Shown here: positions 42,263 through 57,737 of the stretch, piece after piece
How the letters are laid out: every line of letters starts with the position of its first letter
Position numbering within the stretch: the first letter of the stretch is position 1
NCBI RefSeq assembly: GCF_001563225.1
Contig: NZ_CP014206.1
Location: 3,577,486 to 3,641,485, forward strand
DNA from: Pseudodesulfovibrio indicus
Lineage (GTDB): Bacteria > Desulfobacterota > Desulfovibrionia > Desulfovibrionales > Desulfovibrionaceae
DNA length: 64,000 nucleotides
Reading direction: 5' to 3'
The notes under the pieces: model-generated
What the model was told of the DNA's origin: nothing
The model's input: only the letters and a program-made list of their open reading frames with translations
Database searches by the model: none
Position numbers and translations under genes: made by a program

Positions 42263-42337
42263 ATGTTGCATATTTTTATCATTGCATTCCAGCATCTTAT
42301 TCACCATTGGTGTCAAATCATGAGTAAGTGCAAAACC

Positions 42338-42354
42338 TTTGGCATGTCCGTTGC
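42338..42354 (+). promoter_or_regulatory. Sigma-54 promoter of fdhE
   Basis: TTTGGCATGTCCGTTGC: GG at 42341-42342 and GC at 42353-42354 with exactly ten bases between, and near-consensus boxes TTGGCA and TTGC. A start near 42366 gives a leader of about 37 bases before ATG 42403. Suggests RpoN and an enhancer-binding protein drive fdhE. Confidence 0.75.
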
Positions 42355-42402
42355 GCGCCCCCTACTGTTTTGCGCATACGGAAAACACTCAGAGGAAACA
42401 TC

Positions 42403-43290
42403 ATGGAACGCAATCTCACCGATGAAACCCGCAGGCTCGACAAGAAGCTCGTCCAGCTGCGCAAAAAGTCCTACATCTCCGCTGAACTCATCGACCTGCT
42501 GGACGAGGTCTCCCACCTCCAGCTGGCCGCAGTGCCCGAGGCGCGGGTGGTCCTGCCGCCCGACGCGGAGCTGACCCCGCCCCAGGCCGCGATCCAGGGC
42601 GTTTCCCTGGTGGCCCGCGAGAACTTCCCCTTTGACCAGGCCCAGGCCGAAGACCTGCTGGTCAAGCTGCTGGGCATCGTCGGCAAGGTCGAGGGACCGC
42701 TCGGCAAGGGCGCGCGACTGGTGGCCAAGGCGCTGGACGATGGCGACCTGACCCCGGCCGACCTGTTCCGCCGCTTCCTGGACGACGACACCGAGTTCTT
42801 CGGCGAATGGGCCGAACGCATGCCCGAGGCACCGCGCACCCTGCCCTTCCTGGCCTTCGCGGCCATGGGCCCGTCCATCGAGGTGGCCGCCGGAATGCTG
42901 GCCGACAAGCTGCCCGAGATGAAGGTATCCCCGGTGGGAACCTGCCCCATCTGCGGGTCCATGCCGCTGATCTCCTCCCTGGAGCAGAAGGAGGGATTCC
43001 GCCACGCCACCTGCTCGTTCTGCCGCCACGACTACCGGATCAAGCGGATCACCTGTCCGATCTGCGGCGAGGACGACCACACCAAGCTGACCTTCTTCAC
43101 CGTGGACGAGGAGCCGGGCTTCCGGGTGGACGTCTGCGACTCGTGCAAGACCTACGTCAAGACCATCGACTTCCGGAACCTGGACCGCGTGGCGCTCCCG
43201 GTGCTGGACGACCTCGACTCCCTGGCGCTCGACTATGTCGCCGCCGGGCAGGGATACAGGCGGGCGACACTGTCCGCATGGGGATTCTAA
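42403..43290 (+). CDS. fdhE: Formate dehydrogenase accessory protein
   Basis: A 295-residue FdhE, needed to mature periplasmic formate dehydrogenase. The C-terminal rubredoxin-like zinc/iron region has four Cys pairs: GTCPICGS, ATCSFCRHDYR, ITCPICGE and VCDSCKTYVK. The N-terminal half is helical. ATG 42403 has AGAGGAAA upstream; an upstream in-frame ATG would start before the sigma-54 promoter transcript and was rejected. The transposase-like gene follows after 15 bases. Confidence 0.9.
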   Translation: MERNLTDETRRLDKKLVQLRKKSYISAELIDLLDEVSHLQLAAVPEARVVLPPDAELTPPQAAIQGVSLVARENFPFDQAQAEDLLVKLLGIVGKVEGPLGKGARLVAKALDDGDLTPADLFRRFLDDDTEFFGEWAERMPEAPRTLPFLAFAAMGPSIEVAAGMLADKLPEMKVSPVGTCPICGSMPLISSLEQKEGFRHATCSFCRHDYRIKRITCPICGEDDHTKLTFFTVDEEPGFRVDVCDSCKTYVKTIDFRNLDRVALPVLDDLDSLALDYVAAGQGYRRATLSAWGF

Positions 43291-43305: not shown

Positions 43306-44232
43306 ATGCCTGCCCTGAACCGGGAAACCTTGCACATGAATTCGCACATCATGCCCATACTGGACGCGCCGGGAACAGCCGACTTCGAATCGCTGCTCCA
43401 CGACGACGACAAGGCCAGGGAATACCTGCTCGCCAGGACCTGGCCCCTGGGCGACCCGTTCTGTCCCCGGTGCGGGCACCGCAAGGTTTACTCCCTGTCG
43501 GGCGAGCGGCTGCGCTGCGCCAGCTGCAAATACACCTTCCAGCCCTTTTCCGGGCGCTGGATCAACAACGGCGCCCTGACCCCCAGCGAGTGGCTGCGGC
43601 TCATCGTGCTCTTTGTCGAGGAGCGCTCGGTGCACCAGATGAAGGAGGAGCTGGGGCTCTCCTACAACACGGTCTACAAGGCCCTGACCGCCATCCGGTT
43701 CGCCATCCTGGCCCACGCCCTCGACGCCCGCCAGCTCATCAGCCAGGCCACCGGGCTGGACTCCTACCTCAAGGGCAACCGGCTGACCGGCGGCCCCCGC
43801 GAGATGCGCATGGACACCATCCCGGTCTACGGCATCCTGCGCCGCGAAGAGCTGGTCTTCGTGGACCTGGTGCCGGGGTTCCAGGCCGAGACCCTGTTCC
43901 ACTTCCACATGAACTTCCACCTGAAGCTCATCCGCTCCGGCAACCTGGTCTACACCGACCGGTACAAGGAGTACGACGCGCTCATGTTCTGCGGCAACGA
44001 CTCCCTGCCCTACGAGATCATCCGGCGCTATGACGAGCCGCCGCACATCGACGCGGTCCGGGACGAGTTCTGGGAATACGCCCAGGTGCGCATCAAGAAG
44101 TTCCGGGGCATCTCCTGCCAGCGGTTCCCGCTGTACATGAAGGAGCTGGAGTTCCGCTTCAACAACCGCGACAAGTCGCTGCCGGAGATTCTGGCCGCCT
44201 ACCTCTGCGCACTGGTTCCCTCCACGGATTAG
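43306..44232 (+). CDS. ISXO2/IS1595-type transposase-like protein, probably domesticated
   Basis: A 308-residue protein. It has the zinc ribbon of IS1595 transposases (FCPRCGHRKVY ... RCASCKYTF, residues about 50-75), a helix-turn-helix stretch (LGLSYNTVYKALTAI) and the DDE-like fold: VYTDRYKEY with the second Asp, and FWEYAQVRIKKFRGI ... LYMKELEFRFNNRD. The usual first motif DExYxGG reads LDSYLKG, and the third acidic residue region is altered (HIDAVRDEFW in place of HxNGxExFW), so catalysis is doubtful. No terminal inverted repeats or target duplications are seen, AGGAGG precedes the ATG, and it sits 15 bases after fdhE. It may now be a regulator or structural DNA-binding protein. Confidence 0.75.
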   Translation: MPALNRETLHMNSHIMPILDAPGTADFESLLHDDDKAREYLLARTWPLGDPFCPRCGHRKVYSLSGERLRCASCKYTFQPFSGRWINNGALTPSEWLRLIVLFVEERSVHQMKEELGLSYNTVYKALTAIRFAILAHALDARQLISQATGLDSYLKGNRLTGGPREMRMDTIPVYGILRREELVFVDLVPGFQAETLFHFHMNFHLKLIRSGNLVYTDRYKEYDALMFCGNDSLPYEIIRRYDEPPHIDAVRDEFWEYAQVRIKKFRGISCQRFPLYMKELEFRFNNRDKSLPEILAAYLCALVPSTD

Positions 44233-44317: not shown

Positions 44318-45031
44318 ATGCCGTCTAAAATTCTCGTCATCGATGATGAACGGCCCACTCTGTCCATGTTCCGGCTCTTTCTTGAGGCCTATGGATACGA
44401 GGTTTTCACTGCGGAAAACGGCCCGGACGGCATTGATCTGTGCCGGGCACACGCCATTCCGCTCGTCCTGACCGACATCCGCATGCCCGGCATGGACGGC
44501 ATGGAGGTCCTCCGGCTGATCAAGGAGGGCAGCCCCGCCACCGAGGTCATCGTCATCACCGGCCACGGCGACATGGACCTGGCCCTGAAGGCCCTGTCCC
44601 TCGGCGCCACGGACTTCATCAACAAGCCGATCCGGCAGAGCAACATGGACGCCGCCCTGAAACGGGCCGAGGAGCGCATCCTCTATTCCCGCGACACGAA
44701 CACCGGCTACGCCGTCAGCCGTCGGGGAGGGATCGGCATGATCGAGCTGCGGGGCATCGTCAACTCCGTGGCCGAAAAACGGCTCGACCGCGCCTTTTCC
44801 GCCGCCCTGGAAGGGAGCGCGAAGCTGATCGTCTCCTTTGCGGGCAACACCGCCATCAACGGCGCGGGCATGGCCCTCCTCACCCAGCACCTGCTCTCCT
44901 GCCGGGACAACGGCACGCCCGTGGTCCTGGCCGAGCCCCCGGACAGCATCCGGAAATCCATCGAAATGGCGGGGCTCGAAAAACTGGCCCCCGTCCACGT
45001 GACCGTCGAGGAAGCCCTCGCCAACATCTGA
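44318..45031 (+). CDS. Response regulator with STAS-like output domain (paralog 1)
   Basis: A 237-residue protein: receiver (ILVIDDERPTLSMF, Asp53 in LTDIRMPGMDG, VIVITGHGDMDLA, FINKPIRQ) followed from about residue 138 by a STAS/anti-sigma-antagonist-like domain (GMIELRGIVNSV, KLIVSFAGNTAINGAGMALL). In partner-switching STAS proteins the phosphorylated Ser sits in DSSG; here the place reads INGAG, so serine phosphorylation is unlikely. There is no DNA-binding domain, so output must be by protein contact. A close paralog with identical architecture is at 55895-56608. Followed by a periplasmic thioredoxin, as is the paralog. Confidence 0.85.
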   Translation: MPSKILVIDDERPTLSMFRLFLEAYGYEVFTAENGPDGIDLCRAHAIPLVLTDIRMPGMDGMEVLRLIKEGSPATEVIVITGHGDMDLALKALSLGATDFINKPIRQSNMDAALKRAEERILYSRDTNTGYAVSRRGGIGMIELRGIVNSVAEKRLDRAFSAALEGSAKLIVSFAGNTAINGAGMALLTQHLLSCRDNGTPVVLAEPPDSIRKSIEMAGLEKLAPVHVTVEEALANI

Positions 45032-45058
45032 CCGTCAACCGCGAACGGAGTCCATCCC

Positions 45059-45598
45059 ATGACGAAACGCCTCACCATGGCCCTGCTGCTGACCGCCGCG
45101 CTCCTGTGCTCCCAGGCCCTGGCCGGACCGCCAGTGGCGGGCGAGGTCCTTCCCCCCCTGACCATCGCCCCCCTCGCCGTCGAGGGGGACTCGGCCATCC
45201 TCGGACTAAAGGACAACTGCGTCTTCACCCTGGCCGACATCAAGACCGAGTACGTGCTGATCGAAATCCTGGGGGTCTATTGCCCGGTCTGCCGCGAGAT
45301 GTCCTCGTCCCTGACCCGGCTGTACAAGCGGATCAGGAAGGCCCGGCTCGACGACCGCATCACCATGCTCGGCATCGCCGCCGGGGCCACCCCCATGGAA
45401 GTGCGGCACGTCCGGCCCAAGGACTACGTCTTCCCCGTGGCCCACGACACCGAATTCGAGATCCACAAGGCCCTGGCCGAACCCAAGACGCCCTACACCA
45501 TGATCGTGGACCGGGAGGGCAAGGTGTACTACGCCCACCTGGGGATCATCCCGGACTTCAACGCCTTTTTCCAGGAAATCCAGAACCTGGTAAAATGA
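45059..45598 (+). CDS. Periplasmic thioredoxin-like protein (TlpA/redoxin type)
   Basis: A 179-residue exported redoxin: signal peptide MTKRLTMALLLTAALLCSQALA, thioredoxin fold with CPVC at residues 75-78 (VYCPVCREM), cis-Pro region KTPYTMIVDREGKVYYAHLG. CxxC suggests disulfide exchange in the periplasm. It resembles the protein at 57204-57737 (shared YCPxC, GIxAGxTPxE, and DRE/MREGK phrases). Its stop overlaps the next start (ATGA). The following genes encode a rhodanese-like and a MauE/DoxX protein, a combination associated elsewhere with periplasmic redox maturation. Confidence 0.82.
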   Translation: MTKRLTMALLLTAALLCSQALAGPPVAGEVLPPLTIAPLAVEGDSAILGLKDNCVFTLADIKTEYVLIEILGVYCPVCREMSSSLTRLYKRIRKARLDDRITMLGIAAGATPMEVRHVRPKDYVFPVAHDTEFEIHKALAEPKTPYTMIVDREGKVYYAHLGIIPDFNAFFQEIQNLVK

Positions 45599-47334
45599 TC
45601 AGCCCCAAGGACACCCCGGACGCGCCCGGCTCCCTGACGGGTACGGATCGCCAGCTCTTCCACCTGAAGAGCCTCTACGAGGCGTCCAGCGCCCTGGCCG
45701 TCCCGGCCAGGCCTGCCGATCTCCTCCGCGCCTTCCTGCCCGTGGCCATGGGGCCCCTCGGCCTGACCTTCGGGTTCGGGATACTCCTCCACGCCGGGGC
45801 GCTGACCATCGAAAGCCTGGGCCTCCAGCCCCCGGCGGCGGACCTCTACCGCGCCTCCGGGCTGGACCTGGTGCACAAGTTCTTTCCCGAGGACGCCGCG
45901 CCCGCGCACCCGTCCCGCCCGGTCATCCTGGCCGGGGAGCACCTGTCCCACGACCCCAACCTGCCCATGGGCACCGCCGCGGTCATCGCCCTGAGCATGG
46001 GCGCCGGGACCCACGCGGTCCTGGGCTTCGGCCCCAAGGTGGCCGGGGTCCCCCTGGACGCGGACGAGACCCGGCTGCTGGACGGTCTGGCCTCTGTCCT
46101 GGGCCACGCCCTGAACAACGCCACGGCCATGGAGTGCGTCCGGGACCTGAACACCTCCCTGGCCCGCAGGAACGACGACCTGCACCGCGCCCTGGGGGAA
46201 TCGGAACGGGCCAGGGAAGCCCTCTCCAGGCACACCCTCCAGCTCCGCGCACTCTACGAGACCACCCTGGAGATGATCGACATCCACGAGCCGGGGGGCA
46301 TTCTCGACGCCTTCCTGCTCTCCCTCATGGGGACCCTGTCCTTCACGGGCGGCTGGATAGCCCTGTACGGGCCGGGTCACGGCCGGGCCGAAGCGGTCTG
46401 CCGGGGGCTGGCCCCGTGCGTCAGGGAGGAGCTCGTTTCCGAAACGGGCCGGGGAGCCGTGCTGGCGCGGTTCGTGGCCCTCAAGGACCGCATCCCGCAT
46501 GCCAATCACGCCTGCCTGGTGGACGATCCCGAGGAGCGGCAGGCGCTCCCGGCCCAGGCGGACGCGGCCGTGCTCTTCACCTTGGACCAGGGCTGGCAGG
46601 GGGCCATCGGCCTGAGCGCCCCGCTGTCCGGCGAGCGGGACGACGAACTTCTGGACGAAGACGCCCGGCAGCTGCTGCACTCGCTGGTCGCGAATTTCAT
46701 GGTCACCCTGGGCAACGCCCGGCAGCTGGACCTCATCCGGGAGCTGAACTCGGAGCTGGCCGCCCGCAACGTGGACCTCCAGACCACCCTGGACGCCCTG
46801 ACCTCGGCCAAGCGGGAGATCGACGTCCAGACCAAGGCCAAGGAGCACCTGGTGGCCCTGGTGCACGGCGAGGTGGAGCGGGTCTGGCGGGCCTCCTGGC
46901 TGGACATCTGCCTGATCCTGCTGGCCGGAGCGACCCTCGGCATCCTCTACAACCTGTCCAGCCCGGGCGGGATAGACCTGGTGCCGAAGTCTCTCCTGGC
47001 CCCGCCGCCGGTCATGATCGAAGCGGCGGAGGCCAGGCGGCTGGCCCGCGACGACAAGGCCGTGATCATCGACGCCCGGCCCGGCGACTTCTTCCTGCAA
47101 GGGCACATCCCGGACGCCGTCAACCTGCCCGAGGACCTGTTCGAGTTCGTCTATTCCATGAAGCTGTCCGACCTGGACCCGGCGGTGCCGCTGCTGGTCT
47201 ACGGCCGGAACATCAGCCGCCGCTACGACGCCGACGTGGCCAGGCAGCTGGAGCTGCTCGGCCACGAACGGGTGCTGCTCATCAAGGGCGGGCTGGACGC
47301 CTGGAATGGCCTCGGCCCGGAGGAGGCCCCATGA
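45595..47334 (+). CDS. Two-GAF membrane protein with inactive rhodanese domain
   Basis: A 579-residue protein of unusual architecture. Two GAF-like domains (about residues 20-175 and 225-390), each followed by coiled coil (NTSLARRNDDLHRALGESER; ELNSELAARNVDLQTTLDAL), one membrane segment (DICLILLAGATLGILYNL, about 437-455), then a rhodanese-like domain (about 466-577: MIEAAEARRLARDDKAVIID, GHIPDAVNLPEDLF). The rhodanese loop, normally with catalytic Cys, reads LLVYGRNISRRYD, so Cys is replaced by Gly. With one TM, the rhodanese domain is predicted on the periplasmic side. No kinase or cyclase output. Overlaps its neighbours on both sides. Function unknown; a sensor or scaffold for the redox genes is an inference. 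Confidence 0.75.
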   Translation: MISPKDTPDAPGSLTGTDRQLFHLKSLYEASSALAVPARPADLLRAFLPVAMGPLGLTFGFGILLHAGALTIESLGLQPPAADLYRASGLDLVHKFFPEDAAPAHPSRPVILAGEHLSHDPNLPMGTAAVIALSMGAGTHAVLGFGPKVAGVPLDADETRLLDGLASVLGHALNNATAMECVRDLNTSLARRNDDLHRALGESERAREALSRHTLQLRALYETTLEMIDIHEPGGILDAFLLSLMGTLSFTGGWIALYGPGHGRAEAVCRGLAPCVREELVSETGRGAVLARFVALKDRIPHANHACLVDDPEERQALPAQADAAVLFTLDQGWQGAIGLSAPLSGERDDELLDEDARQLLHSLVANFMVTLGNARQLDLIRELNSELAARNVDLQTTLDALTSAKREIDVQTKAKEHLVALVHGEVERVWRASWLDICLILLAGATLGILYNLSSPGGIDLVPKSLLAPPPVMIEAAEARRLARDDKAVIIDARPGDFFLQGHIPDAVNLPEDLFEFVYSMKLSDLDPAVPLLVYGRNISRRYDADVARQLELLGHERVLLIKGGLDAWNGLGPEEAP

Positions 47335-47810
47335 CCGCCGCGATCCGCGCCCTCCTGACCAGCCCCTGGCTGGCCCTGGCCTTCCGCCTCTACCTCGGCG
47401 GGCTGTTCGTCTACGCGGCCATGTACAAGATCAACTACGCCGCCGAATTCAGCACGACCATCGCCTCCTACCGCCTGATCCCCTATTGGGCGGTCAACGT
47501 CATGGCCCTGGTCATGCCGTGGACCGAGATCATCTGCGGGGCGATGCTGCTCCTCGGCGTGCGGGTCAAGTCGGTCACCGTGATCATCGGCGGCCTCCTC
47601 TCCGTCTTCACCCTGGCCATCTTCATCAACCTTCTCCGCAACGCGCCCATCAGTTGCGGATGCTTCCACACCCTCGAGGACCCCATCAGCTGGTGGACCG
47701 TGCTCCGCGACCTGACCTGGATCGGCATGACCGTCCACGTGCACTACTTCGACAGCGTCCTCCAGACCGATCAGCTGTTCCTCGGGAAACTCAGAAGGAT
47801 ACACACATGA
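47331..47810 (+). CDS. MauE/DoxX-family membrane protein
   Basis: A 159-residue protein with four membrane segments. Family phrases: FRLYLGGLFVYAAMYKI, PWTEIICGAMLLLGVRVKS and APISCGCFH, the CxC motif in the last loop typical of MauE-like proteins, which help form disulfides or quinone cofactors in the periplasm. It overlaps both neighbours by four bases. It probably works with the periplasmic thioredoxin at 45059-45598. Confidence 0.82.
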   Translation: MTAAIRALLTSPWLALAFRLYLGGLFVYAAMYKINYAAEFSTTIASYRLIPYWAVNVMALVMPWTEIICGAMLLLGVRVKSVTVIIGGLLSVFTLAIFINLLRNAPISCGCFHTLEDPISWWTVLRDLTWIGMTVHVHYFDSVLQTDQLFLGKLRRIHT

Positions 47811-48121
47811 CCCGCCGCGACCTGCTGCTCCTGATGCTGCTCCCTGCCTTCACGGCCTGCGCCCCCGACAGGGACACCCTGCCCGGGGACTACTCGGCGA
47901 GGAACGGGGAGATCGAGATCCGACTCAGGCTGGGCAAGGACGGAAAGGGCGTCTGGTCCACGGACACCGACGAGATACCGTTCAAGTGGAGCCGCCGCGA
48001 CGAGGGCCATATCTGGCTGCACACCGTTGCCGGCGGGGTCATTCCCGGCATCATCGAGGGGGAGGACATCCGCCTCACCCTTCCCGGCGTTCCCCCGCTG
48101 GTCTTCACCCCCCTGCCCTAG
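47807..48121 (+). CDS. Small lipoprotein, unknown function
   Basis: A 104-residue lipoprotein: MTRRDLLLLMLLPAFTAC with lipobox FTAC. The mature part (GDYSARNGEIEIRLRLGKDGKGVWST) is beta-rich, like a small lipocalin-like or calycin sheet. Last gene of the redox group; the next gene starts 234 bases later behind a promoter-like region. Confidence 0.72.
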   Translation: MTRRDLLLLMLLPAFTACAPDRDTLPGDYSARNGEIEIRLRLGKDGKGVWSTDTDEIPFKWSRRDEGHIWLHTVAGGVIPGIIEGEDIRLTLPGVPPLVFTPLP

Positions 48122-48194
48122 CTCGCGTCGCCCCCTTTCCCGCCTGTTTTTTCCTCCGGGAAGCCGGTGTCAAACCGTGGGGCGGAAATCAATT

Positions 48195-48212
48195 TATGCC
48201 AGAATTGACATA
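48195..48212. promoter_or_regulatory. 18-bp dyad upstream of fdhA
   Basis: TATGCCA-GAAT-TGACATA: 7-4-7 dyad with one mismatched pair, extended by T/A on each flank (TTTATG...CATAAA, 48193-48214). Same architecture and half-site as the dyad upstream of fdhE (42245-42262). Its right half contains TTGACA (48205-48210), which with TATCGC 17 bases later could be a weak promoter, so the binding site would overlap the -35 box. Confidence 0.6.
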
Positions 48213-48354
48213 AAGTAGACGCAGCAATATCGCCATTCTGCTAAAAATAGCATGTTTTTTCGTGTGTAAAAACCGTTGCAAGAGCAAGTTCTTTGCCCGC
48301 CTGACCATTTTCCCTCATAAGGGGGATAACCAAAAAAATGGGAGAGGAACGCGA

Positions 48355-48582
48355 ATGCGCTTGAACACCAACCTTATGCCGGCTTCGGCCCAGACAACCA
48401 TGCCCTTTGCGGGCTTGGGTTTCGCCGTGGCCGAGGTCCGTGAAGCGGCCAAGTCGATGAGCCCGGTTCCTCACTGCCATGGTGGCAGCCAGGACGTCGT
48501 CGCCGCCGCTTTCGGGCCTGCCGTTCAAGTCGGCGGCTACAAACTGCTCGTGACCCTGGGTCGCGAGATCCGCGGGCGCTGA
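48355..48582 (+). CDS. Small protein upstream of fdhA, unknown function
   Basis: A 75-residue reading frame with a good ribosome site (GGAGAGGA six bases before ATG 48355) and codon use like the neighbours. No signal peptide is obvious; the sequence contains HCHGGS and no known motif. It ends 22 bases before the fdhA ATG, whose AGGAGG lies in the gap, so it should be co-transcribed with the formate dehydrogenase. It could be a leader peptide or a small accessory protein. I do not recognise it. Confidence 0.6.
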   Translation: MRLNTNLMPASAQTTMPFAGLGFAVAEVREAAKSMSPVPHCHGGSQDVVAAAFGPAVQVGGYKLLVTLGREIRGR

Positions 48583-48604
48583 CCCGCAAACACCAGGAGG
48601 TAGA

Positions 48605-51600
48605 ATGCACACCAACCGTAGGAACTTCCTCAAGCTCTCCGCAGTCGCGGCCACGGCCACGGCTTTCGGCGGGTTGGGATTCGGTTGCAAGGCCGAGACG
48701 GCTCCCCTGCCCGACCGCGCCGCAGCCCTGGACCCCAAGTGGAGCAAACAGACCACCACCATCTGCTGCTACTGTGCCGTGGGTTGCGGGCTGGTCGTCA
48801 ACACGTCCCTGAAGGACATGAAGGCGATCAACGTTGAAGGCGACCCGGACCACCCGATCAACGAAGGCGCGCTGTGCGCCAAGGGCGCGTCCATCTGGCA
48901 GCTGGCCGAAAACGACCGCCGCCCGGACTCCGTCCTCTACAGGGCTCCCTACGCCAAGGAATTCAAGAAGGTCTCCCTGTCCTGGGCGCTCGAAACCATC
49001 GCCCGCCGGATCAAGGACACCCGCGACAAGACCTGGACCGAGAAAAACGCCAAGGGCCAGGTGGTCAACCGCTGCGACGGCATCGCCTCCGTCGGTTCGG
49101 CCGCTCTCGACAACGAGGAGTGCTGGGCTTACCAGACCATGCTCCGCAGCCTCGGCCTGGTGTATGTGGAACACCAGGCTAGGATCTGACACAGCGCGAC
49201 TGTTGCGGCTCTGGCAGAGTCGTTCGGACGCGGTGCGATGACCAATCACTGGATCGACATCCAGAACTCTGATTGCATTCTTATCATGGGCAGCAACGCT
49301 GCCGAAAACCATCCCATCTCTTTCAAGTGGGTGACCAGGGCGCAGGAAAAGGGCGCAACCCTGATCCACGTCGACCCCCGCTTCACCAGGACCTCGGCCA
49401 AGGCCGACTTCTACGCCGGCATCCGTTCGGGCGCCGACATCGCCGTCCTCGGCGGCATGATCAAATACATCCTGGAAAAGGACCTGATCTTCAAGGACTA
49501 CGTGGTTGACTATACCAACGCGTCCTTCATCGTCGGCGACAAGTACAAGTTCGAGGACGGCATGTTCTCGGGCTACAACGAGAAGACCCGGAGCTACGAC
49601 AAGTCCACCTGGGCCTTTGCCATGGACGCCGACGGCAATCCGAAAAAAGACCCGACCCTCCAGGACCCCAACTGCGTGTACCAGCTCATGAAGAAGCACT
49701 ACTCGCGGTACGACCTGGACAAGGTCGTCTCCATCTCGGGCATGAACAAGGCCGACCTGGTCAAGCTGTACGAGACGTACGCGGCCACCGGCAAGGCGGA
49801 CAAGGCCGGGACCATCATGTACGCCATGGGCTGGACCCAGCACACCGTCGGCGTGCAGAACATCCGCTGCATGGCCATGATCCAGCTGCTGCTGGGCAAC
49901 ATCGGCATCGCCGGCGGCGGCGTCAACGCCCTGCGCGGCGAATCCAACGTCCAGGGCTCCACCGACCACTGCCTGCTGTACCACATCATCCCCGGCTACC
50001 TGGCGACCCCCCAGGCCTCTCAGCCCGACCTGGCCACGTACAACAAGGCCAACACCCCGGTCTCCAACGACCCGAAATCCGCCAACTGGTGGCAGAACTT
50101 CCCGAAGTACTCCGCGTCGCTCATCAAGTCCATGTGGCAGAACGACACCCCGGAGGACGCCTACCAGTTCCTGCCCCGCCTCGACTCCCTGTCGGCCATG
50201 GAATATTCCTGGCTGACCCTGTTCGACAAGATGGAAAAGGGCCAGTTCAAGGGGCTGCTCTCCTGGGGCATGAACCCCGCCTGTTCCGGCGCCAACGCCG
50301 AAAAGAACAGGAAGGCCATGGCCAACCTCGACTGGCTGGTGAACGTCAACATCTTCCCCAACGAAACCGGCTGGTTCTGGGAAGGACCGGGATTGGACCC
50401 CTCGACCATCAAGACCGAGGTCTTCTTCCTGCCCTGCGCCGTGTCCATCGAGAAGGAAGGGTCCGTCACCAACTCCGGCCGCTGGATGCAGTGGCGCTAC
50501 AAGGGCCCGGACGCGCCCAACGGGCAGAAGCCCGACGGCGACCTGATGTACGAGCTGATGAAGGAAATCCAGCATCTGTACGAGAAGGAAGGCGGCGTCT
50601 ATCCGAAGCCCATCACCCGTCTGACCTGGGACGCCATCGCCACCGACGGCGTGTTCGATGCCCACAAGACGGCCAAGCTGATCAACGGTCACTTCACCCG
50701 TGACGTCGAGATCAAGGGCAAGCTCTACAAGAAGGGCCAGCAGGTCCCGAGCTTCGCCTTCCTGCAGGCCGACGGCTCCACCGCCTCCGGCAACTGGCTG
50801 TACTGCCACTCCTACACCGACGCCGGCAACATGGCCGCGCGCCGCGACCTGACCCAGACCCCGGAGCAGGCCAACATCGGCCTGTACCCGAACTTCTCCT
50901 GGTGCTGGCCCGTCAACCGCCGCGTGCTGTACAACCGCGCCTCGGTCGACCTTCAGGGCAAGCCCTGGAACCCGCAAAAGGCGGTCATCGCCTGGAACGG
51001 CGAGAAGTGGGTGGGCGACGTGCCCGACGGCGGCTGGGCCCCCGGCACCAAGTACGCCTTCATCATGCGCAAGCACGGCCACGGCCAGCTCTTCGGCCCC
51101 GGCCGCGCCGACGGCCCGCTGCCCGAGTACTACGAGCCTCTGGAATGCCCGGTCAAGGAGCATCCGTTCTCCAAGACCCTGCACAACCCCACCGCGCTGA
51201 CCTTCGACGCCGAGGAAAAGGCCGTGTGCGATCCCAGGTATCCCCTGGTCGGCACCACCTACCGCGTCACCGAGCACTGGCAGACCGGCGTCATGACCCG
51301 CAACCAGACCTGGTTGACCGAGGCCGAGCCCCAGGTGTTCGTGGAGATGAGCCCCGAGCTGGCCGAACTCCGCGGCATCGAGAACGGCGAAAAGGTCATG
51401 GTGGACTCCCTGCGCGGGACCATCTGGGCCAAGGCCATCGTCACCAAGCGGCTCAAGCCGTTCACCGTCCAGGGCACCATCGTCCATCAGGTCGGCCTGC
51501 CCTGGCACTTCGGCTGGACCTGGCCCAAGGATGGCGGCGATTCCGCCAACATCCTGACCCCGTCCGTTGGCGACCCGAACACGGGTATTCCCGAAACCAA

Positions 51601-51631
51601 GGCCTTCATGGTCAACGTCCGCAAGGCGTAA
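48605..51631 (+). CDS. fdhA: Formate dehydrogenase alpha subunit, selenocysteine-containing
   Basis: A 1008-residue periplasmic Mo/W-bis-MGD formate dehydrogenase oxidising formate to CO2. Twin-arginine signal RRNFLK (residues 5-10). A [4Fe-4S] binding set CCYCAVGCG near 54-61 with CAKG near 90. The in-frame TGA at 49187-49189 is selenocysteine 195, in QARIUHSATVAAL, followed by the conserved GRGAMTNHWIDI and MGSNAAENHP. After it the reading frame continues unbroken to 51631, including the C-terminal molydopterin-dinucleotide domain (VFVEMSPELAELRG). AGGAGG precedes the ATG. An automatic caller would split it into two genes at the TGA. Partner FdhB follows after 12 bases. Confidence 0.95.
49190..49232 (+). 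other. Bacterial SECIS element
   Basis: Directly after the UGA codon the message can fold with GACUGUUGC (about 49198-49206) pairing imperfectly with GGCAGAGUC (about 49212-49220) around a GGCUCU apical region. Position and loop type match SelB-binding SECIS hairpins in formate dehydrogenase mRNAs. Pairing was done by eye. Confidence 0.6.
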
Positions 51632-51643
51632 AGGAGGAATGAC

Positions 51644-52369
51644 ATGAGTAAAACATTCTTCATCGACCTGACCAAGTGTACGGCCTGCCGTGGTTGCCAG
51701 ATTGCCTGCAAGCAATGGAAGAAGCTGCCCGCCGAGCAGACCGAGAACTGGGGTTCCCACCAGAACCCCAAGGATCTCTCAGGCGTCACCCTCAAACTGG
51801 TCCGCTTCGAGGAAGTGGAGACCGACGACGGGCTGCAATGGCTGTTCTTCCCCGAACAGTGCCGCCACTGCGTCGAGCCGCCCTGCCTGGACGCCATGAC
51901 CGTTCCGGGTTCCATCGTCCATGACGAGGAGACCGGGGCCGTGGTCTACACCGAGCTGACCGCCAAGGAACCGGACAAGGATGCCTTCAGCATGGCCTGT
52001 CCGTACAACATCCCCCGGGTCAACAAGGAGACCGGCCGCGTGGTCAAATGCGACATGTGCATCGACCGCGTGAAGATCGGCATGCTCCCCGCCTGCGTTC
52101 AGACCTGCCCCACCGGCTGCATGAACTTCGGCGACCGGGACGAGATGCTGGCCCTTGCGGAGAAGAGCCTGGAGAAGGCCACCGAGAAGTTCCCGAACGC
52201 GGAACTGGTGGACGCCGAGTACGTGCGGGTCATCTACCTCGTGCAGACCGATCCGGACAGCTACTACGAGTCCCTGTCCTCGGACGCCTCGGACATCCGC
52301 CGCGGCCCCCTGTCCAGGAAGCAGTTCCTGGCCTCCCTGGCCCGGCCGATCAAGCGCATGCGCTCCTGA
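51644..52369 (+). CDS. fdhB: Formate dehydrogenase beta (iron-sulfur) subunit
   Basis: A 241-residue electron-transfer subunit with four ferredoxin-type [4Fe-4S] sets: CTACRGCQIACKQW, CRHCVEPPC, CPYNIPR / CDMCIDR and CVQTCPTGC. It passes electrons from FdhA to periplasmic cytochrome c. No signal peptide of its own, as usual: it is exported with FdhA by the Tat route. GGAGG lies before the ATG. No gamma subunit or cytochrome gene follows, so the complex is the soluble periplasmic two-subunit type. Confidence 0.94.
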   Translation: MSKTFFIDLTKCTACRGCQIACKQWKKLPAEQTENWGSHQNPKDLSGVTLKLVRFEEVETDDGLQWLFFPEQCRHCVEPPCLDAMTVPGSIVHDEETGAVVYTELTAKEPDKDAFSMACPYNIPRVNKETGRVVKCDMCIDRVKIGMLPACVQTCPTGCMNFGDRDEMLALAEKSLEKATEKFPNAELVDAEYVRVIYLVQTDPDSYYESLSSDASDIRRGPLSRKQFLASLARPIKRMRS

Positions 52370-52381
52370 CGACACTCACAC

Positions 52382-52409
52382 CCCCGGCGCGGGTTCGCCC
52401 GCGCCGGGG
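52382..52409 (+). terminator. Hairpin after fdhB
   Basis: Perfect 12-bp GC stem CCCCGGCGCGGG / CCCGCGCCGGGG with a TTCG tetraloop, 12 bases after the fdhB stop. No T tract. Confidence 0.65.
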
Positions 52410-52496
52410 TCATTCACCCGACGCTCCATGCGTGAACACCTCCGTGAGCCGCACCGTCCGTCGCCGCAAGGCAACGGGGCAATCGGAGTTTTTCAT

Positions 52497-52530
52497 GACC
52501 CCGGCAGGCATTCGCCGCCGGGGTCTTTTT
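52497..52530 (+). terminator. Second, T-tailed terminator after fdhB
   Basis: Nine-bp stem GACCCCGGC / GCCGGGGTC followed by TTTTT. Closes the fdh operon before the binding-protein gene. Confidence 0.8.
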
Positions 52531-52656
52531 CCCCGGCCTCACAGGAGAAATCGATGTTACATTGTGGGGAAATGCAGGGTCCTTGTGTTTTACCGTCCGA
52601 GACAGTAACGGATTGGTGCGACCCTTGTAATCCGACCCCGAAAATGGAGCCGAGCC

Positions 52657-53892
52657 GTGCATAGCAACCCGTGGAAGAGCCTCATCCCCTGCCTCGCGCT
52701 CTGCCTGGCCCTCTTCCTCGCGGGGTGCGACGGGTCGCCCGCCACCACGGCCGGCGACGACGCGGTTCCCGGCGTCACCAGCGACCAGATCACGCTGGGC
52801 TCCTCCCTGCCCCTGTCCGGCCACGCCGGTTATCTCGGCACCCAGACCCTCCAGGGCGCGCGCGCCTACCTGCGCCACGTCAACGAGCAGGGCGGCGTGC
52901 ACGGCCGCCAGATCAAGATCGAGGTCCTGGACGACTCCTACGACCCGCCCCAGTGCCTGGCCAACACCCAGCAATTCATCGTCAACCGCAAGGTCTTCGC
53001 CCTGTTCTGCTACGTGGGCACCCCGACCACCATCAAGGCCCTGCCCCTGGTGGAGGACGCCCACGTCCCGCTCATCGGCATGTTCACCGGGGCCAACGCC
53101 CTGCGCCAGCCGGTGAACCGCTACGTGATCAACATCCGCGCCTCCTACTACCAGGAGACCATGGACGCGGTCAGCCACATGGTCAACGACCTCGGCCTGT
53201 CCAAGATCGCGGTCTTCTACCAGTACGACGCCTACGGCTTCGACGGGCTGATCGGCACCGAGCTGGCCCTCAAGAAATACGGCCTGGAGCCGGTGGCCCG
53301 CAGCTCCTACATCCGAGGGACCCTGGACGTCCAGGACGGGCTGGATCGCATCCGCCGGTCCGGGGCCGAAGCCGTGGTCATGATCGGCACCTACGGCGCG
53401 TGCGCCCGGTTCATCAACCTCTCCGTGGAGGAGGGGTACAACCCGATTTTCTACACCGTCTCCTTTGTCGGCGCCGAGGAACTGGCCTGGCGCGTGGGCA
53501 GGTCGTCCCCGGCCCACGTCTTCATGTCCCAGGTGGTCCCCCCGCCCATGGAATCGCAGGTCGAGGGCGACTCGGCCAGCGAATACGTCCGGCTGCTCAG
53601 GCGCTACTTCCCGGACGACACCCCGAGCTTCGTCGGCCTGGAGGGCTTCCTCAACGCCGAGATCCTGGTGGAAGGGCTGCGCCGGGCCGGACGCGATCTG
53701 ACCCGCGAGGGGTTCATCAGGGCCATCGAGTCCATCAAGGACTTCAAGCTCGGCCCCGGCCTGACCATCACCTACGGTCCCTACGACCGCCAGGGGCTGG
53801 ACGCCATCCATTTCACCAAGCTGCACGAGGGCCGCTTCATCCCGTTCACCAACTGGGCCGAGTTCAAACGGGAACTGGAGACGCAGCAATGA
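52657..53892 (+). CDS. Periplasmic binding lipoprotein (branched-chain amino acid/amide type)
   Basis: A 411-residue type I periplasmic binding protein (LivJ/AmiC-like) with lipoprotein signal ending LFLAGC. Phrases: ITLGSSLPLSGHAGYLG, LRHVNEQGGVHGRQI, YVGTPTTIKALPLVEDAHVP and KIAVFYQYDAYGFDG. Start GTG 52657 after GGAGCCGA. No LivHMGF genes are nearby; instead the stop overlaps the start of a histidine kinase (ATGA), so it most likely feeds a ligand signal to that kinase. An inverted repeat CGGATT/AATCCG just upstream (about 52609-52634) may be regulatory. Confidence 0.88.
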   Translation: MHSNPWKSLIPCLALCLALFLAGCDGSPATTAGDDAVPGVTSDQITLGSSLPLSGHAGYLGTQTLQGARAYLRHVNEQGGVHGRQIKIEVLDDSYDPPQCLANTQQFIVNRKVFALFCYVGTPTTIKALPLVEDAHVPLIGMFTGANALRQPVNRYVINIRASYYQETMDAVSHMVNDLGLSKIAVFYQYDAYGFDGLIGTELALKKYGLEPVARSSYIRGTLDVQDGLDRIRRSGAEAVVMIGTYGACARFINLSVEEGYNPIFYTVSFVGAEELAWRVGRSSPAHVFMSQVVPPPMESQVEGDSASEYVRLLRRYFPDDTPSFVGLEGFLNAEILVEGLRRAGRDLTREGFIRAIESIKDFKLGPGLTITYGPYDRQGLDAIHFTKLHEGRFIPFTNWAEFKRELETQQ

Positions 53893-55898
53893 CGCTGTTC
53901 CAGAAGACCTTCACCCGGCTGGCCCGCATCGGGCTGCGCGAAAAACTGCTCTTCTCCATGCTGGCGGCCGTCCTGTTCATCTCCGTGGCCATCGCCCTGA
54001 TCTCCCGCTACATCCTGGTCAGTTCCCTGACCAACGAGCTGGAGATGCGCGGTTTCGCCATCGCCCACTCCGTGGCCGAACGCGGCGGCTCCTACATCCT
54101 GGACAACGACATCCCCAAGCTGCTGGTGCTCATCTTCGACGAGGCAAAACTGAGGCAGCGCAAGGACCTGGTGGCCTACATATTCATCGAGGACCAGAAC
54201 AACAACATCCTGGCCCACACCCTGACCCACGAGCTGCCCAAGAACCTGCGCTCCAACACCCTGCCCCCGGACCGCCACGACTCGATCAAGCTCATGGAGC
54301 TGGGCGGGCGCGAGATATACGACCTGGCGGCGGGCATCAACGAAGGCCTCTACCGCATCGGCACGGTCCACGTGGGGCTGAACAAGCGGCACATCGACTC
54401 CCTGGTGGGCAAGCTCCGGGTGGCCTTCCTCGGCTTCATCTCGGCGGTGGTCATCATCACCATCATCCTTTCCTCCTGGCTGTCCAAGTACATCACCAAG
54501 CCGGTTTCGGACCTGACCCGGCTGTCGGACGAGATCAGCCGGGGCAACTTCGACATCCCGCTGAAGCTCGGCTCCGGCGAGGATTGGAACGCCGCCGAAT
54601 GCCCGGCCTTCTCCAACACCGACCTGCCGTGCTGGCACTTCGACCAGTCGCGCAGCGGACAGCGGCCCGGCGAGGCCCACCGCAAGTGCGCGGACTGCGC
54701 CTTCTACCGCAAGCACGAGGGCGACGAGGTGGTCCAGCTCGGCGACTCCTTCCGCAACATGGTCTGGTCCATCAAGCTCTACCGCAGGCGGCTGCGCGAG
54801 TCCGAGGAGAAATACCGCTCCCTGTTCGACTCCGGGCCGGACCCGATCTTCGTCGTGGATTGCGAGAGCGGGACCGTGCGCGACGCCAACCCGCGCGCCA
54901 CGGAGCTTTACGGCTACGCCAGGAACGAGCTGCTGGGCATGAATCTCCTGGACCTGGGCCCGGAACACAACGCGGACTGCCTGGATTATTTCAACGAGGG
55001 CGGCAGCGGGTGCGTCTATTTCCCCAAGCGGCTGCACTACAAGAACGGCGGTGAACCGTTCTTCGTGAACATGCACGCCTGCCCCATCTCCTACCGGGGC
55101 CACCACGCGATCATCATCGCGGTCACGGACATCACCGAACTGATAGAGAAGGACGCCCAGCTCATCCAGGCGGGCAAGATGAAGTCCCTGGGCGAGATGT
55201 CCGCGGGCGTGGCCCACGAGATCAACCAGCCCCTCAACGCCATCAAGGTGGGCAGCGAGTTCCTGTCCATGATGCAGGAGGAGGACCTGGAGATTCCCAA
55301 GGAGCATTTCCTCCAGGTGGTCCACGAGATATCCTCCCAGGTGGACCGGGCCGCCGAGATCATCGACACCCTGCGCTCCTTCGGGCGCAAGTCCGACCTC
55401 ATGGAGGAGCAGGTGGACCTGAACCAGCCCATCCGGGCGGTGCTGTCCATGCTCCGCCGCCAGTTCGAGCTGGACAACATCCGCTTCGACCTGGACCTGG
55501 CCGAAGGGCTCAACCCGGTGCAGGCCCATTCCAACAGGCTGCAGCAGGTCATCTTCAACATGGTGACCAACGCGCGCGATGCCATCAACGACATTTCCCA
55601 GGCGGACGGCAATGCCGAACGCCGCATCAGCATCCGGACCGGAAACGCGGAGCGCCGCGTGTTCCTCGAGGTGGAGGACACCGGTTCGGGCATCGACGAG
55701 AAGGACCAGCAGAAGATATTCGAGCCGTTCTTCACCACCAAGGAGGCGGGTCAGGGCATGGGGCTCGGGCTGGCCATCACCTACGGCATCATCAAGGATT
55801 ACGGCGGAGAGATCCGCATCAACAGCGGCAAGGGGGAAGGCACGGTCTTCCGCATGGAGTTCCCCGCCGCGAGCATGCGAGGAGAGGCCAAGGCATGA
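53889..55898 (+). CDS. PAS histidine kinase with Cys-rich (two-CW-like) insert in HAMP region
   Basis: A 669-residue sensor kinase. TM1 about residues 18-40, periplasmic region to about 170, TM2 about 172-195, start of HAMP (ITKPVSDLTRLSDEISRGNF), then an inserted Cys cluster: Cys238 in ECPAF, Cys248 in LPCWHF, Cys267 and Cys270 in KCADCAFYRK, resembling the two-CW domain. PAS about 312-430 (FDSGPDPIFVVDCESG), H-box SAGVAHEINQPLNAI with His443, ATPase lobe with NMVTNARDAI, DTGSGIDEKDQQKIFEPFFTT and GMGLGLAI. Overlaps the binding-protein gene before it and the receiver-STAS gene after it. The cysteines may bind a metal and report redox state; this is inference. Confidence 0.85.
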   Translation: MTLFQKTFTRLARIGLREKLLFSMLAAVLFISVAIALISRYILVSSLTNELEMRGFAIAHSVAERGGSYILDNDIPKLLVLIFDEAKLRQRKDLVAYIFIEDQNNNILAHTLTHELPKNLRSNTLPPDRHDSIKLMELGGREIYDLAAGINEGLYRIGTVHVGLNKRHIDSLVGKLRVAFLGFISAVVIITIILSSWLSKYITKPVSDLTRLSDEISRGNFDIPLKLGSGEDWNAAECPAFSNTDLPCWHFDQSRSGQRPGEAHRKCADCAFYRKHEGDEVVQLGDSFRNMVWSIKLYRRRLRESEEKYRSLFDSGPDPIFVVDCESGTVRDANPRATELYGYARNELLGMNLLDLGPEHNADCLDYFNEGGSGCVYFPKRLHYKNGGEPFFVNMHACPISYRGHHAIIIAVTDITELIEKDAQLIQAGKMKSLGEMSAGVAHEINQPLNAIKVGSEFLSMMQEEDLEIPKEHFLQVVHEISSQVDRAAEIIDTLRSFGRKSDLMEEQVDLNQPIRAVLSMLRRQFELDNIRFDLDLAEGLNPVQAHSNRLQQVIFNMVTNARDAINDISQADGNAERRISIRTGNAERRVFLEVEDTGSGIDEKDQQKIFEPFFTTKEAGQGMGLGLAITYGIIKDYGGEIRINSGKGEGTVFRMEFPAASMRGEAKA

Positions 55899-56608
55899 AG
55901 GAAAAAGTTCTGGTCATAGACGACGAGCGGCCCACGCTGAAGATGTTCACCCTGCTGCTCTCCGCGTACGGGTACCAGGTGCTGACCGCGGAGAACGGCC
56001 GAGAGGGCGTGGAGACCTTCCTGCGGGAAAGTCCGGGACTGGTGCTGACGGACATCAAGATGCCCATCATGGACGGCATCGAGGCCCTCAAGGCCATCAA
56101 GAAGCTCAATCCCAACACCGAGGTCATCGTGATCACCGGCCACGGCGACATGGACCTGGCCATCCAGGCCCTGAACCTCGACGCCACGGACTTCATCAAC
56201 AAGCCGCTCAAGCGGGAGGCCCTGGAAAAGGCCCTGACCCGCGCCCGCGAACGGATCAACATCACCCGAAACGAAGAGGGGCAGGTGGTGCTGGAGGAGA
56301 AGGACCGGGTGGCGGTCATCGGCGTGCGCGGCAACGTCTCGTCCATGACCCTGCCGCATCTGAGCGAGACCTTTGCCCAGGCCGCGGCCTTGGGCAAGGA
56401 GCTGATCCTCATCGATTTCGAGAAGAACGCCTCCATCAACGGGGCGGGCATCACCGGCCTGACCGAGCTGCTGCGGGAACACCGTGGCGGCGCCAGGATC
56501 GTCCTGGCCGGGTTGTCGAGCAATTTCCGGACGGTTTTCGAGACCCTCGGCATAACCAAGCTGGCCGAGATATTCGACAACGGAGAGGAGGCGCTGGCCT
56601 CCCACTAG
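55895..56608 (+). CDS. Response regulator with STAS-like output domain (paralog 2)
   Basis: A 237-residue protein, same length and layout as the one at 44318-45031. Receiver: VLVIDDERPTLKMF, Asp53 in LTDIKMPIMDG, VIVITGHGDMDLAIQAL, FINKPLKR. STAS-like part from about 140: VAVIGVRGNVSSMTLPHL, ILIDFEKNASINGAGITGL. The canonical STAS phosphoserine site again reads INGAG. Its ATG overlaps the kinase stop by four bases, so the kinase is the likely phosphodonor. Possibly signals to an anti-sigma factor or another partner not in the window. Confidence 0.86.
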   Translation: MKEKVLVIDDERPTLKMFTLLLSAYGYQVLTAENGREGVETFLRESPGLVLTDIKMPIMDGIEALKAIKKLNPNTEVIVITGHGDMDLAIQALNLDATDFINKPLKREALEKALTRARERINITRNEEGQVVLEEKDRVAVIGVRGNVSSMTLPHLSETFAQAAALGKELILIDFEKNASINGAGITGLTELLREHRGGARIVLAGLSSNFRTVFETLGITKLAEIFDNGEEALASH

Positions 56609-56612
56609 GACC

Positions 56613-57191
56613 CTATTTGCCGAGCTTCTCCAGCTCGCCCACCAGGACCCCCAGGTCCGGCCGCTCGTTGATGTCGTGGACGTCGATGTAGCGGATGATC
56701 CCCTGCTTATCGATCACGAACAGAGAGCGTTCGGCCATGCCGTCCGAGCGCAGCACGCCGAAGGAGGCCGCCACCTTGCCGTGGGGCCAGAAGTCGGAGA
56801 GCACGGGGAAGTCGAGGCCGTGCATGGCCTTGGCCCACTCGGCCTGGGTCGGGGTGTTGTCCACCGTAATGCCGATGACCTCAGCGCCCAGCCCGTGGAT
56901 CAGGTCCAGGGCAAGGTTGTAGCCCGGCCACTGGTCCGAGCAGACCGGCGTCCAGGCGGCCGGGACAAAGGAGAGCACCACGCTCCGCTTGCCCCGGTAG
57001 TCGCTCAGCCGAACCTTGTCGCCGTTCAGATCCGGCAGCTCGAAGTCGGGGGCCATGTCGCCCACCTTGACCTTGAGGGTGGAATCAATGGGCTTGAGAT
57101 GCCCGGTTGGATAGGGGATCATGTCGTCGGCCCGGCTTCCGGGCGCGAGCAGCAGCAAAACCAGCAATGCCAATAACGGTACCCGTTTCAC
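56613..57191 (-). CDS. Exported peroxiredoxin (AhpC/TSA type)
   Basis: A 192-residue peroxiredoxin with signal peptide (MKRVPLLALLVLLLLAPGSR). Peroxidatic Cys84 in AAWTPVCSDQWP, preceded by FELPDLNGDKVRLSDYRGKRSVVLSF, and ERSLFVIDKQGIIRYIDVHD later. Only one Cys is seen, so 1-Cys or partner-dependent: the thioredoxin-like protein encoded just upstream (57204-57737) may reduce it. Convergent with the receiver-STAS gene, stops four bases apart. Protects the periplasm against peroxides. Confidence 0.88.
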   Translation of the reverse strand: MKRVPLLALLVLLLLAPGSRADDMIPYPTGHLKPIDSTLKVKVGDMAPDFELPDLNGDKVRLSDYRGKRSVVLSFVPAAWTPVCSDQWPGYNLALDLIHGLGAEVIGITVDNTPTQAEWAKAMHGLDFPVLSDFWPHGKVAASFGVLRSDGMAERSLFVIDKQGIIRYIDVHDINERPDLGVLVGELEKLGK

Positions 57192-57203
57192 AGCTCTCTC
57201 CTC

Positions 57204-57737
57204 CTACTCGGGAATAAGGGCCAGCAAATCCTTGAGAAAGGCGTCCTTGTCCTTGATCTCGCCCTCGTGAAACAGGACGATGCTTCGCTTTCCCTCGCGC
57301 ATGTCCACCATATAATAGGCCGGGGTCCCCACCCCGCCCACGGCCTTGTGCGCCACGTAGTCCGGGTCCTCGAAGAGCGGGAACTCCACGCCGAACTTCT
57401 TCTGGTAGAAGGCGATCTCAAAGGGCGTGTTGCCCGCGCCGATGCCGAGGAAGCGCAAAGCCCCGGCCTTGTCCGAGGCCAAGGCGTCGGCGAACATCGC
57501 GTTCACGGACGGCGCGTTGCGCTGGCAGATGGGGCAGTACATGCTGAACACCTCCACGAACAGGAAGTCCGCGTTGATGTTCGAAATCTTGAAGTCGCCT
57601 TCGGGTACTCCCAGGTACTCGCGCTGCTCCTGCGTGATCTTGCCTTCGAGTTGCACGTCCGGGAACACGTCCTGGGCCATGGCCGAGGTCGCCAGCAAGA
57701 GCAGGCAGACGACCGAGAGCAATATGCGTCTATGCAT
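57204..57737 (-). CDS. Periplasmic thioredoxin-like protein (paralog of 45059-45598)
   Basis: A 177-residue exported redoxin: signal peptide MHRRILLSVVCLLLLATSAMA, CPIC at residues 68-71 (SMYCPICQRN), GIGAGNTPFEIAFYQKKFG, and cis-Pro region GTPAYYMVDMREGK. Start ATG (complement of 57735-57737) has AAAGGAC upstream. Twelve bases before the peroxiredoxin gene, forming a two-gene operon. Family resemblance and neighbourhood match the CPVC protein next to the other receiver-STAS gene. Confidence 0.83.
   Translation of the reverse strand: MHRRILLSVVCLLLLATSAMAQDVFPDVQLEGKITQEQREYLGVPEGDFKISNINADFLFVEVFSMYCPICQRNAPSVNAMFADALASDKAGALRFLGIGAGNTPFEIAFYQKKFGVEFPLFEDPDYVAHKAVGGVGTPAYYMVDMREGKRSIVLFHEGEIKDKDAFLKDLLALIPE

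Follow-up and report, generated by a model that had tools for sequence, protein, structure and literature searches.

A conserved receiver-STAS and thioredoxin neighbourhood around the selenocysteine formate dehydrogenase of Pseudodesulfovibrio indicus, and its possible role in redox control of the enzyme

Among enzymes for CO2 reduction the formate dehydrogenase FdhAB holds a leading place, and a disulfide switch decides whether it rests in an O2-safe form or is fully active. In the well-studied enzyme of Desulfovibrio vulgaris, the surface disulfide C845-C872 renders the protein nearly inactive and O2-stable when formed, and the reduced enzyme is active (PMC11323313, PMC11134731; reviewed in PMC13397495). 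In the literature searched, largely open-access, no cellular partner of this switch is named, the activator there being dithiothreitol. Here we describe a locus around the selenocysteine (Sec) formate dehydrogenase genes of the sulfate-reducing bacterium Pseudodesulfovibrio indicus, whose complete genome measures 3.97 Mb, found in a stretch of 64,000 nucleotides (contig NZ_CP014206.1, positions 3,577,486 to 3,641,485; hereafter the window). We consider the chances about even that the locus serves redox control of periplasmic FdhAB, in that two putatively exported thioredoxins, Trx1 and Trx2, act on the FdhA switch, and a sensor with regulators joining a receiver to a STAS domain (RR-STAS) controls that relay by protein contact. 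The locus supplies a short list of candidates for the switch partner (Trx1, Trx2, MauE and the kinase/RR-STAS system) together with a co-occurrence pattern, so that the question becomes directly testable with purified proteins in vitro and in the genetically tractable D. vulgaris.

Thioredoxins and the FdhA switch

The features concerned, in window coordinates, are the following.
48605..51631 (+), fdhA, with selenocysteine at the in-frame TGA 49187-49189 (translation; match to D. vulgaris FdhA, 6sdr)
51146..51229 (+), FdhA codons C848 to C875, equivalent to the D. vulgaris allosteric disulfide C845-C872 (alignment to 6sdr and conservation; PMC11323313, PMC11134731)
51644..52369 (+), fdhB, iron-sulfur subunit (sequence reading; conserved beside fdhA)
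45059..45598 (+), Trx1, putatively exported ResA-like thioredoxin with a CPVC motif (Pfam AhpC-TSA, Redoxin and Thioredoxin_8)
57204..57737 (-), Trx2, putatively exported ResA-like thioredoxin with a CPIC motif (weak AhpC-TSA match; near fdh genes in 26 of the 73 loci surveyed below)
56613..57191 (-), exported 1-Cys peroxiredoxin (PF00578), with a single Cys84 in 17/17

Alignment of the window FdhA to 6sdr places Sec195, both switch cysteines (C848 and C875) and Met408, the counterpart of D. vulgaris Met405. Among the five FdhA paralogs of the genome, the window protein and one other carry the Cys pair, the remaining three having Thr and Ala at these positions. The second switch-type fdhAB (L143:4592-8382, G000:C1:3540215 region) lies without adjoining sensor or thioredoxin genes.

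Both thioredoxins conserve the CxxC motif (26/26 for Trx1, 29/29 for Trx2) and the Pro that follows it in the fold (Thr-Pro in Trx1, Pro in Trx2), their N-termini read as signal-like, and their nearest solved relative is ResA. The kinship between them that the sequence-only reading had proposed was borne out by alignment (28% identity, E 9e-21, reciprocal profile matches above 50 bits). In the tree they form two old subfamilies separated by one supported branch (SH-aLRT 99), so the two RR-STAS and thioredoxin "pairs" of the window, which that reading took for a repeated unit, are not a duplicated two-gene unit, and this possibility was ruled out.

Switch-type FdhA was scored in 119 Desulfovibrionaceae genomes by a DNA pattern (59 genomes; 0 with the reversed pattern as control) and corrected by direct reading of FdhA, which gave 65 genomes with the switch, 53 without it, a class that includes genomes without any close FdhA, and one unscored genome whose fdhA is cut by a contig end (G020). 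Thioredoxins were scored both by single query and by profile, and the best hits were bimodal, at least 127 or at most 45 bits. Of the 65 genomes with the switch, 62 have the Trx1/Trx2 family, and of the 53 without it, 0 (Fisher 2e-30, a descriptive value that ignores relatedness), and no genome combines the family with a known lack of the switch. Both states occur in three genera, each with a concordant loss: in g21, G021 and G096 have both switch and thioredoxin and G057, G079 and G108 have neither; in g29 four genomes have both and G061 neither; and in g7, G105 has neither. In the three g21 genomes without the switch (loci L190, L191 and L192), the two FdhA copies that were read have Ala in place of C875 and keep C848, and the genomes have no Trx of this family. 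An rpoB tree covering 29 genomes shows 7 changes of the switch and 8 of the thioredoxin; of its 5 well-supported independent pairs an average of 4.2 agree and 0 oppose, too small a number to be significant by itself. Because they cluster with switch-type FdhAB or share genomes with it, Trx1 and Trx2 are the foremost candidates for the cellular factor operating the FdhA switch.

The same pattern could have another origin, namely a general periplasmic oxidative-stress locus in which Trx2, the peroxiredoxin and the sensor defend the whole periplasm, the association with the switch reflecting shared free-living, O2-exposed habitats. The 1-Cys peroxiredoxin adjoining Trx2, the smaller size of most negative genomes and the several genera where Trx2 is unlinked to fdh are consistent with this explanation. 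However, large switch-less genomes (G008, G019, G024, G040, G068, G073, G089 and G114) also lack the thioredoxins, and within g7, g21 and g29 switch and thioredoxin vary together between sister species; we hold this explanation to be possible, if rather doubtful.

Conserved modules and the duplicated regulator

The signalling and membrane components of the locus are listed below; apart from the two regulators, all of these genes were absent from the sequence-only reading.
44318..45031 (+), RR-STAS1, receiver and STAS domains, 237 residues (Pfam), heading the Trx1 operon, with no adjacent kinase
55895..56608 (+), RR-STAS2, receiver and STAS domains, 237 residues, cognate to the kinase (Pfam; synteny; tree)
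53889..55898 (+), histidine kinase, sCache-HAMP-Cys4 insert-PAS-HisKA-HATPase (Pfam), with a 4-base overlap with RR-STAS2
54600..54698 (+), Cys4 insert of the kinase, C238/C248-W/C267-x-x-C270, in the HAMP-PAS interval, with each of its four Cys kept in 61/61
52657..53892 (+), periplasmic binding lipoprotein (Peripla_BP_6, PF13458), with lipobox Cys24 in 64/64
45595..47334 (+), GAFrhod, GAF-GAF-coiled coil, membrane helix and rhodanese-like domain (PF00581; AlphaFold model)
47331..47810 (+), MauE/DoxX-type membrane protein with a CGC motif (PF07291)
47807..48121 (+), small lipoprotein, kept in 25 loci, with lipobox Cys18 in 26/26

From 42.3 to 57.7 kb, the gene order is fdhE, an IS1595-like gene, RR-STAS1, Trx1, GAFrhod, MauE, the small lipoprotein, fdhA, fdhB, the binding lipoprotein, the kinase and RR-STAS2, followed on the opposite strand by the peroxiredoxin and Trx2. 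As the sequence-only reading had stated, the proteins at 44318 and 55895 share their layout (PF00072 and PF01740), neither has a DNA-binding domain by Pfam, and fdhAB lies between the two RR-STAS/thioredoxin sites; the coordinates it gave were also correct. Its statement that each regulator adjoins a thioredoxin stood for Trx1, which starts 27 bases downstream of RR-STAS1 on the same strand, and failed for Trx2, which is convergent and lies beyond the peroxiredoxin.

The 119 genomes were searched with RR-STAS1, and all window proteins were mapped onto the surroundings, about 16 kb in each case, of 73 full-length RR-STAS genes from 66 further genomes. The kinase lies directly upstream of RR-STAS on the same strand in 65 of the 73 loci and is accompanied by the binding protein in 63, so that kinase, regulator and periplasmic binding protein are encoded together as in three-component signalling; Trx1 is directly downstream of RR-STAS in 25. 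Within about 8 kb of RR-STAS, fdhA, fdhB or the IS1595-like gene was found in 51 of the 73 loci, as against about 1.5% expected at random placement. A chance neighbourhood of unrelated genes, for which nothing speaks beyond the variable gene order, is thereby refuted, the linkage having been kept through many rearrangements, and we give it practically no credence. A search of named genomes with the kinase returned matches mainly in Pseudodesulfovibrio.

In the fullest single-copy arrangement, binding protein and kinase are followed by RR-STAS, Trx1, GAFrhod, MauE and lipoprotein, and fdhAB lies before or after this series, in one orientation or the other. The conserved units are thus binding protein-kinase-RR-STAS and Trx1-GAFrhod-MauE-lipoprotein, and a single RR-STAS bridges them in most single-copy genomes possessing the second unit. 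Since single-copy genomes show one RR-STAS between kinase and Trx1, the two regulators of the window are two halves of one module, RR-STAS2 having been kept with the kinase and RR-STAS1 with Trx1. The functional unit suggested earlier was therefore partly upheld: the conserved neighbourhood does join signalling, periplasmic thiol chemistry and FdhAB, but the composition of the unit is different. Trx2 accompanies fdhAB and the peroxiredoxin in some genera and in others lies far away from RR-STAS as well as from fdh.

RR-STAS1 and RR-STAS2 share 48% identity over their full length, 63% in the receiver and 32% in the STAS domain. In a tree of 75 proteins, the RR-STAS1 genes of the genera g1 and g22 form one clade (100/100) apart from their own RR-STAS2 genes (100/97), and in g9 the two kinds are sisters (100/97 and 100/99) within a joint clade (98/98), a split independent of the g1/g22 event; g10, on a long branch, is a third case. 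The two copies of the window thus come from a duplication and split that recurs in other genera. Wherever the kinase half is separate from the Trx1-GAFrhod half (g1/g22, g9 and g10), each half keeps an RR-STAS, and of the 29 genomes with GAFrhod, all 28 evaluable genes stand behind RR-STAS, nearly all with Trx1 between, the remaining one lying at a contig end beside fdhB. Both observations argue that RR-STAS takes its input from the kinase and exerts its effect on the half with Trx1 and GAFrhod.

The residues expected of a two- or three-component system are conserved. The kinase has HisKA and HATPase_c domains (PF00512, PF02518) with the phospho-acceptor His443 in 64/64, and the receivers have D9, D10, D53 (acidic pocket and phospho-acceptor Asp), T81 and K103 in 75/75. 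No Pfam or NCBIfam model matches the Cys4 insert (C238, C248-Trp, C267 and C270), which is probably a metal or redox sensor and a candidate new sensor motif. The nearest solved relatives of the binding lipoprotein are Leu/Ile/Val-type proteins.

As the regulators have no DNA-binding domain, the protein-contact output proposed earlier is most likely. One form of such an output is partner-switching sigma control, in which RR-STAS would be a receiver-gated anti-anti-sigma factor titrating an RsbW-type anti-sigma factor and so governing transcription of fdh and stress genes. The STAS fold and Pfam match (PF01740 above cut-off, with a confident structure model) fit this explanation, HATPase_c_2 and SpoIIE proteins are encoded in the genome, and the receiver could stand in for serine phosphorylation as the switch. 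Nevertheless, an INGAG/NGAG-type motif takes the place of the DSSG type, the phospho-serine being absent from 75/75 aligned proteins (no Ser there among the sequences listed), which makes classical RsbV-RsbW switching unlikely. Moreover, no anti-sigma or RsbW-type gene recurs among the conserved neighbours, and in a genome-wide search for an RsbW-type partner, as the sequence-only reading had advised, two of the three clear HATPase_c_2 proteins adjoin their own canonical STAS (ISSAG and INSSG), in which the Ser is kept. The orphan HATPase_c_2 at 568206 is a possible STAS partner. This orphan (L140:4138-5646, G000:C1:568206 region) carries an acetyltransferase-like part at its C-terminus, and no STAS gene was seen adjoining it. 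Altogether we regard sigma control, and an RsbW-type partner with it, as unlikely. The kinase/receiver-STAS system is a widespread Desulfovibrionaceae family with an output other than DNA binding and, most likely, other than classical RsbW partner switching.

The AlphaFold model of GAFrhod comprises two GAF-like domains, coiled coils, a membrane helix (about 435-455) and a rhodanese fold. The catalytic Cys of the rhodanese is replaced by Gly537 in 27/27, which does not agree with sulfurtransferase activity, and GAFrhod is, judged from this residue, a conserved pseudoenzyme. MauE keeps C109 and C111 (CGC) in 26/26. These proteins could alternatively serve maturation or assembly, with Trx1, MauE and GAFrhod engaged in disulfide chemistry or in sulfur, selenium or tungsten handling for FdhAB or cytochrome maturation. 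MauE takes its name from methylamine dehydrogenase maturation, and ResA, to which Trx1 and Trx2 are nearest, is a cytochrome c maturation oxidoreductase; furthermore, an fdhD-like gene and fdhE both lie beside the module. On the other hand, the rhodanese lacks its catalytic Cys, and genomes that have no Trx1/Trx2 family commonly encode FdhA paralogs lacking the Cys pair, so general FdhA maturation does not need this family. We therefore find a maturation role improbable.

Two further genes complete the locus.
42328..43290 (+), presumably fdhE, formate dehydrogenase accessory protein, named by sequence reading; adjoining the module in 20 of the 73 loci by tblastn
43306..44232 (+), IS1595/ISXO2-like protein (PF12762, PF12760), in 39 of 73 loci, mostly adjoining fdhA

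Across the family, with about 35-86% identity, the IS1595/ISXO2-like protein is the steady single neighbour of fdhA, and for this reason it is probably domesticated and perhaps an fdh regulator. An all-against-all search for other conserved neighbours of the kinase-type loci yielded fdh genes, fdhE and the IS1595-like gene, and beyond these only scattered others; the unlabelled families among the neighbours we take to resemble ABC-F and a MoeA-type gene.

A possible route from the sensor to the switch

We hypothesize that the binding lipoprotein, with a putative ligand, and the membrane histidine kinase, whose cytoplasmic Cys4 element is probably a redox or metal sensor, phosphorylate the receiver-STAS regulators. 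As an RsbW serine kinase could not switch this STAS domain, phosphorylation of the receiver would drive the binding or release of a protein partner, the likeliest being the cytoplasmic GAF-GAF part of GAFrhod, encoded two genes downstream. GAFrhod would carry the signal outward to the periplasmic thiol relay (MauE-Trx1). MauE, or the DsbD/CcdA-type proteins present in the genome, would feed electrons to Trx1 and Trx2, which may reduce, or reset, C848-C875 of FdhA and so shift FdhAB from its O2-protected resting form into the active form or back, and the 1-Cys peroxiredoxin would provide protection. In general terms, the three-component system would tune the thiol relay, or a related target, via STAS contact. 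The specific chain, an inside-out control running from a cytoplasmic phospho-signal through receiver-STAS and the membrane GAF-pseudorhodanese to a dedicated thioredoxin relay in the periplasm, by which the FdhA disulfide is opened or closed, is put forward tentatively, its probability being rather low.

Several observations weigh against the redox-control reading. The co-occurrence is not independent of ancestry, and the 5 well-supported independent pairs on the rpoB tree give a sign test p of 0.06-0.25; three genomes (G017, G028 and G036) keep the switch without a thioredoxin of the Trx1/Trx2 family, and Trx2 is often distant from fdh (g7, g10 and g25). GAFrhod is missing in more than half of the RR-STAS genomes and consequently cannot be the only target. 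RR-STAS too goes with the switch, which speaks for the reading, but agrees with it less well than the thioredoxins do: 62 of the 66 genomes with RR-STAS have the switch, as against 3 of the 52 without RR-STAS. It is kept in G057, G079, G108 and G105 although FdhA there has no Cys pair, and two or three switch genomes have no RR-STAS (G005 and G017; G014 with a cut contig), so the regulator is not strictly tied to the switch. Since the thioredoxins, like the switch, are missing from these four genomes, Trx tracks the switch more closely than RR-STAS does. Finally, in G044, which has a kinase and Trx1 locus, the neighbouring FdhA lacks the pair; a second FdhA of that genome has it.

Comparison with described systems

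Every part of the locus is of a known kind. The combination of a binding lipoprotein, a Cys4 kinase, a Ser-less receiver-STAS, a pseudorhodanese and switch-tracking thioredoxins was not found described in the largely open-access literature searched, and searches on receiver-STAS proteins in Desulfovibrio and on the locus tags around DVU0587 returned nothing useful.

The closest enzyme is the W/Sec-FdhAB of D. vulgaris (Nitratidesulfovibrio) Hildenborough (6sdr, 8cm6), which is homologous over its full length and likewise has Sec, the two switch cysteines and the conserved Met. There is no known difference between the enzymes, and the thioredoxin and sensor genes around the D. vulgaris FdhAB are not discussed in the open-access papers searched.

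On the signalling side, TorT-TorS-TorR is a three-component system with a periplasmic binding protein, and the window system resembles it in that binding protein, membrane kinase and response regulator are encoded together; it differs in its Peripla_BP_6 lipoprotein, in the sCache kinase with its Cys4 insert and in a STAS domain in place of the DNA-binding output. The SpoIIAA/RsbV anti-anti-sigma factors share the STAS fold, whereas the window proteins are fused to a receiver and have NGAG in place of the phospho-serine motif. TciR of Vogesella indigofera is likewise a kinase-paired receiver joined to a partner-switching-type domain, but it carries the RsbW-like kinase side, where the window family carries the STAS side (PMC12826045). 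Lastly, Trx1 and Trx2 resemble the ResA/TlpA-type thioredoxins (3c71) in the CxxC motif, the cis-Pro region and the signal-like N-terminus read from sequence; they differ in forming a distinct subfamily that, among the 119 genomes, was found only in those with switch-type FdhA (G020 being unscored).

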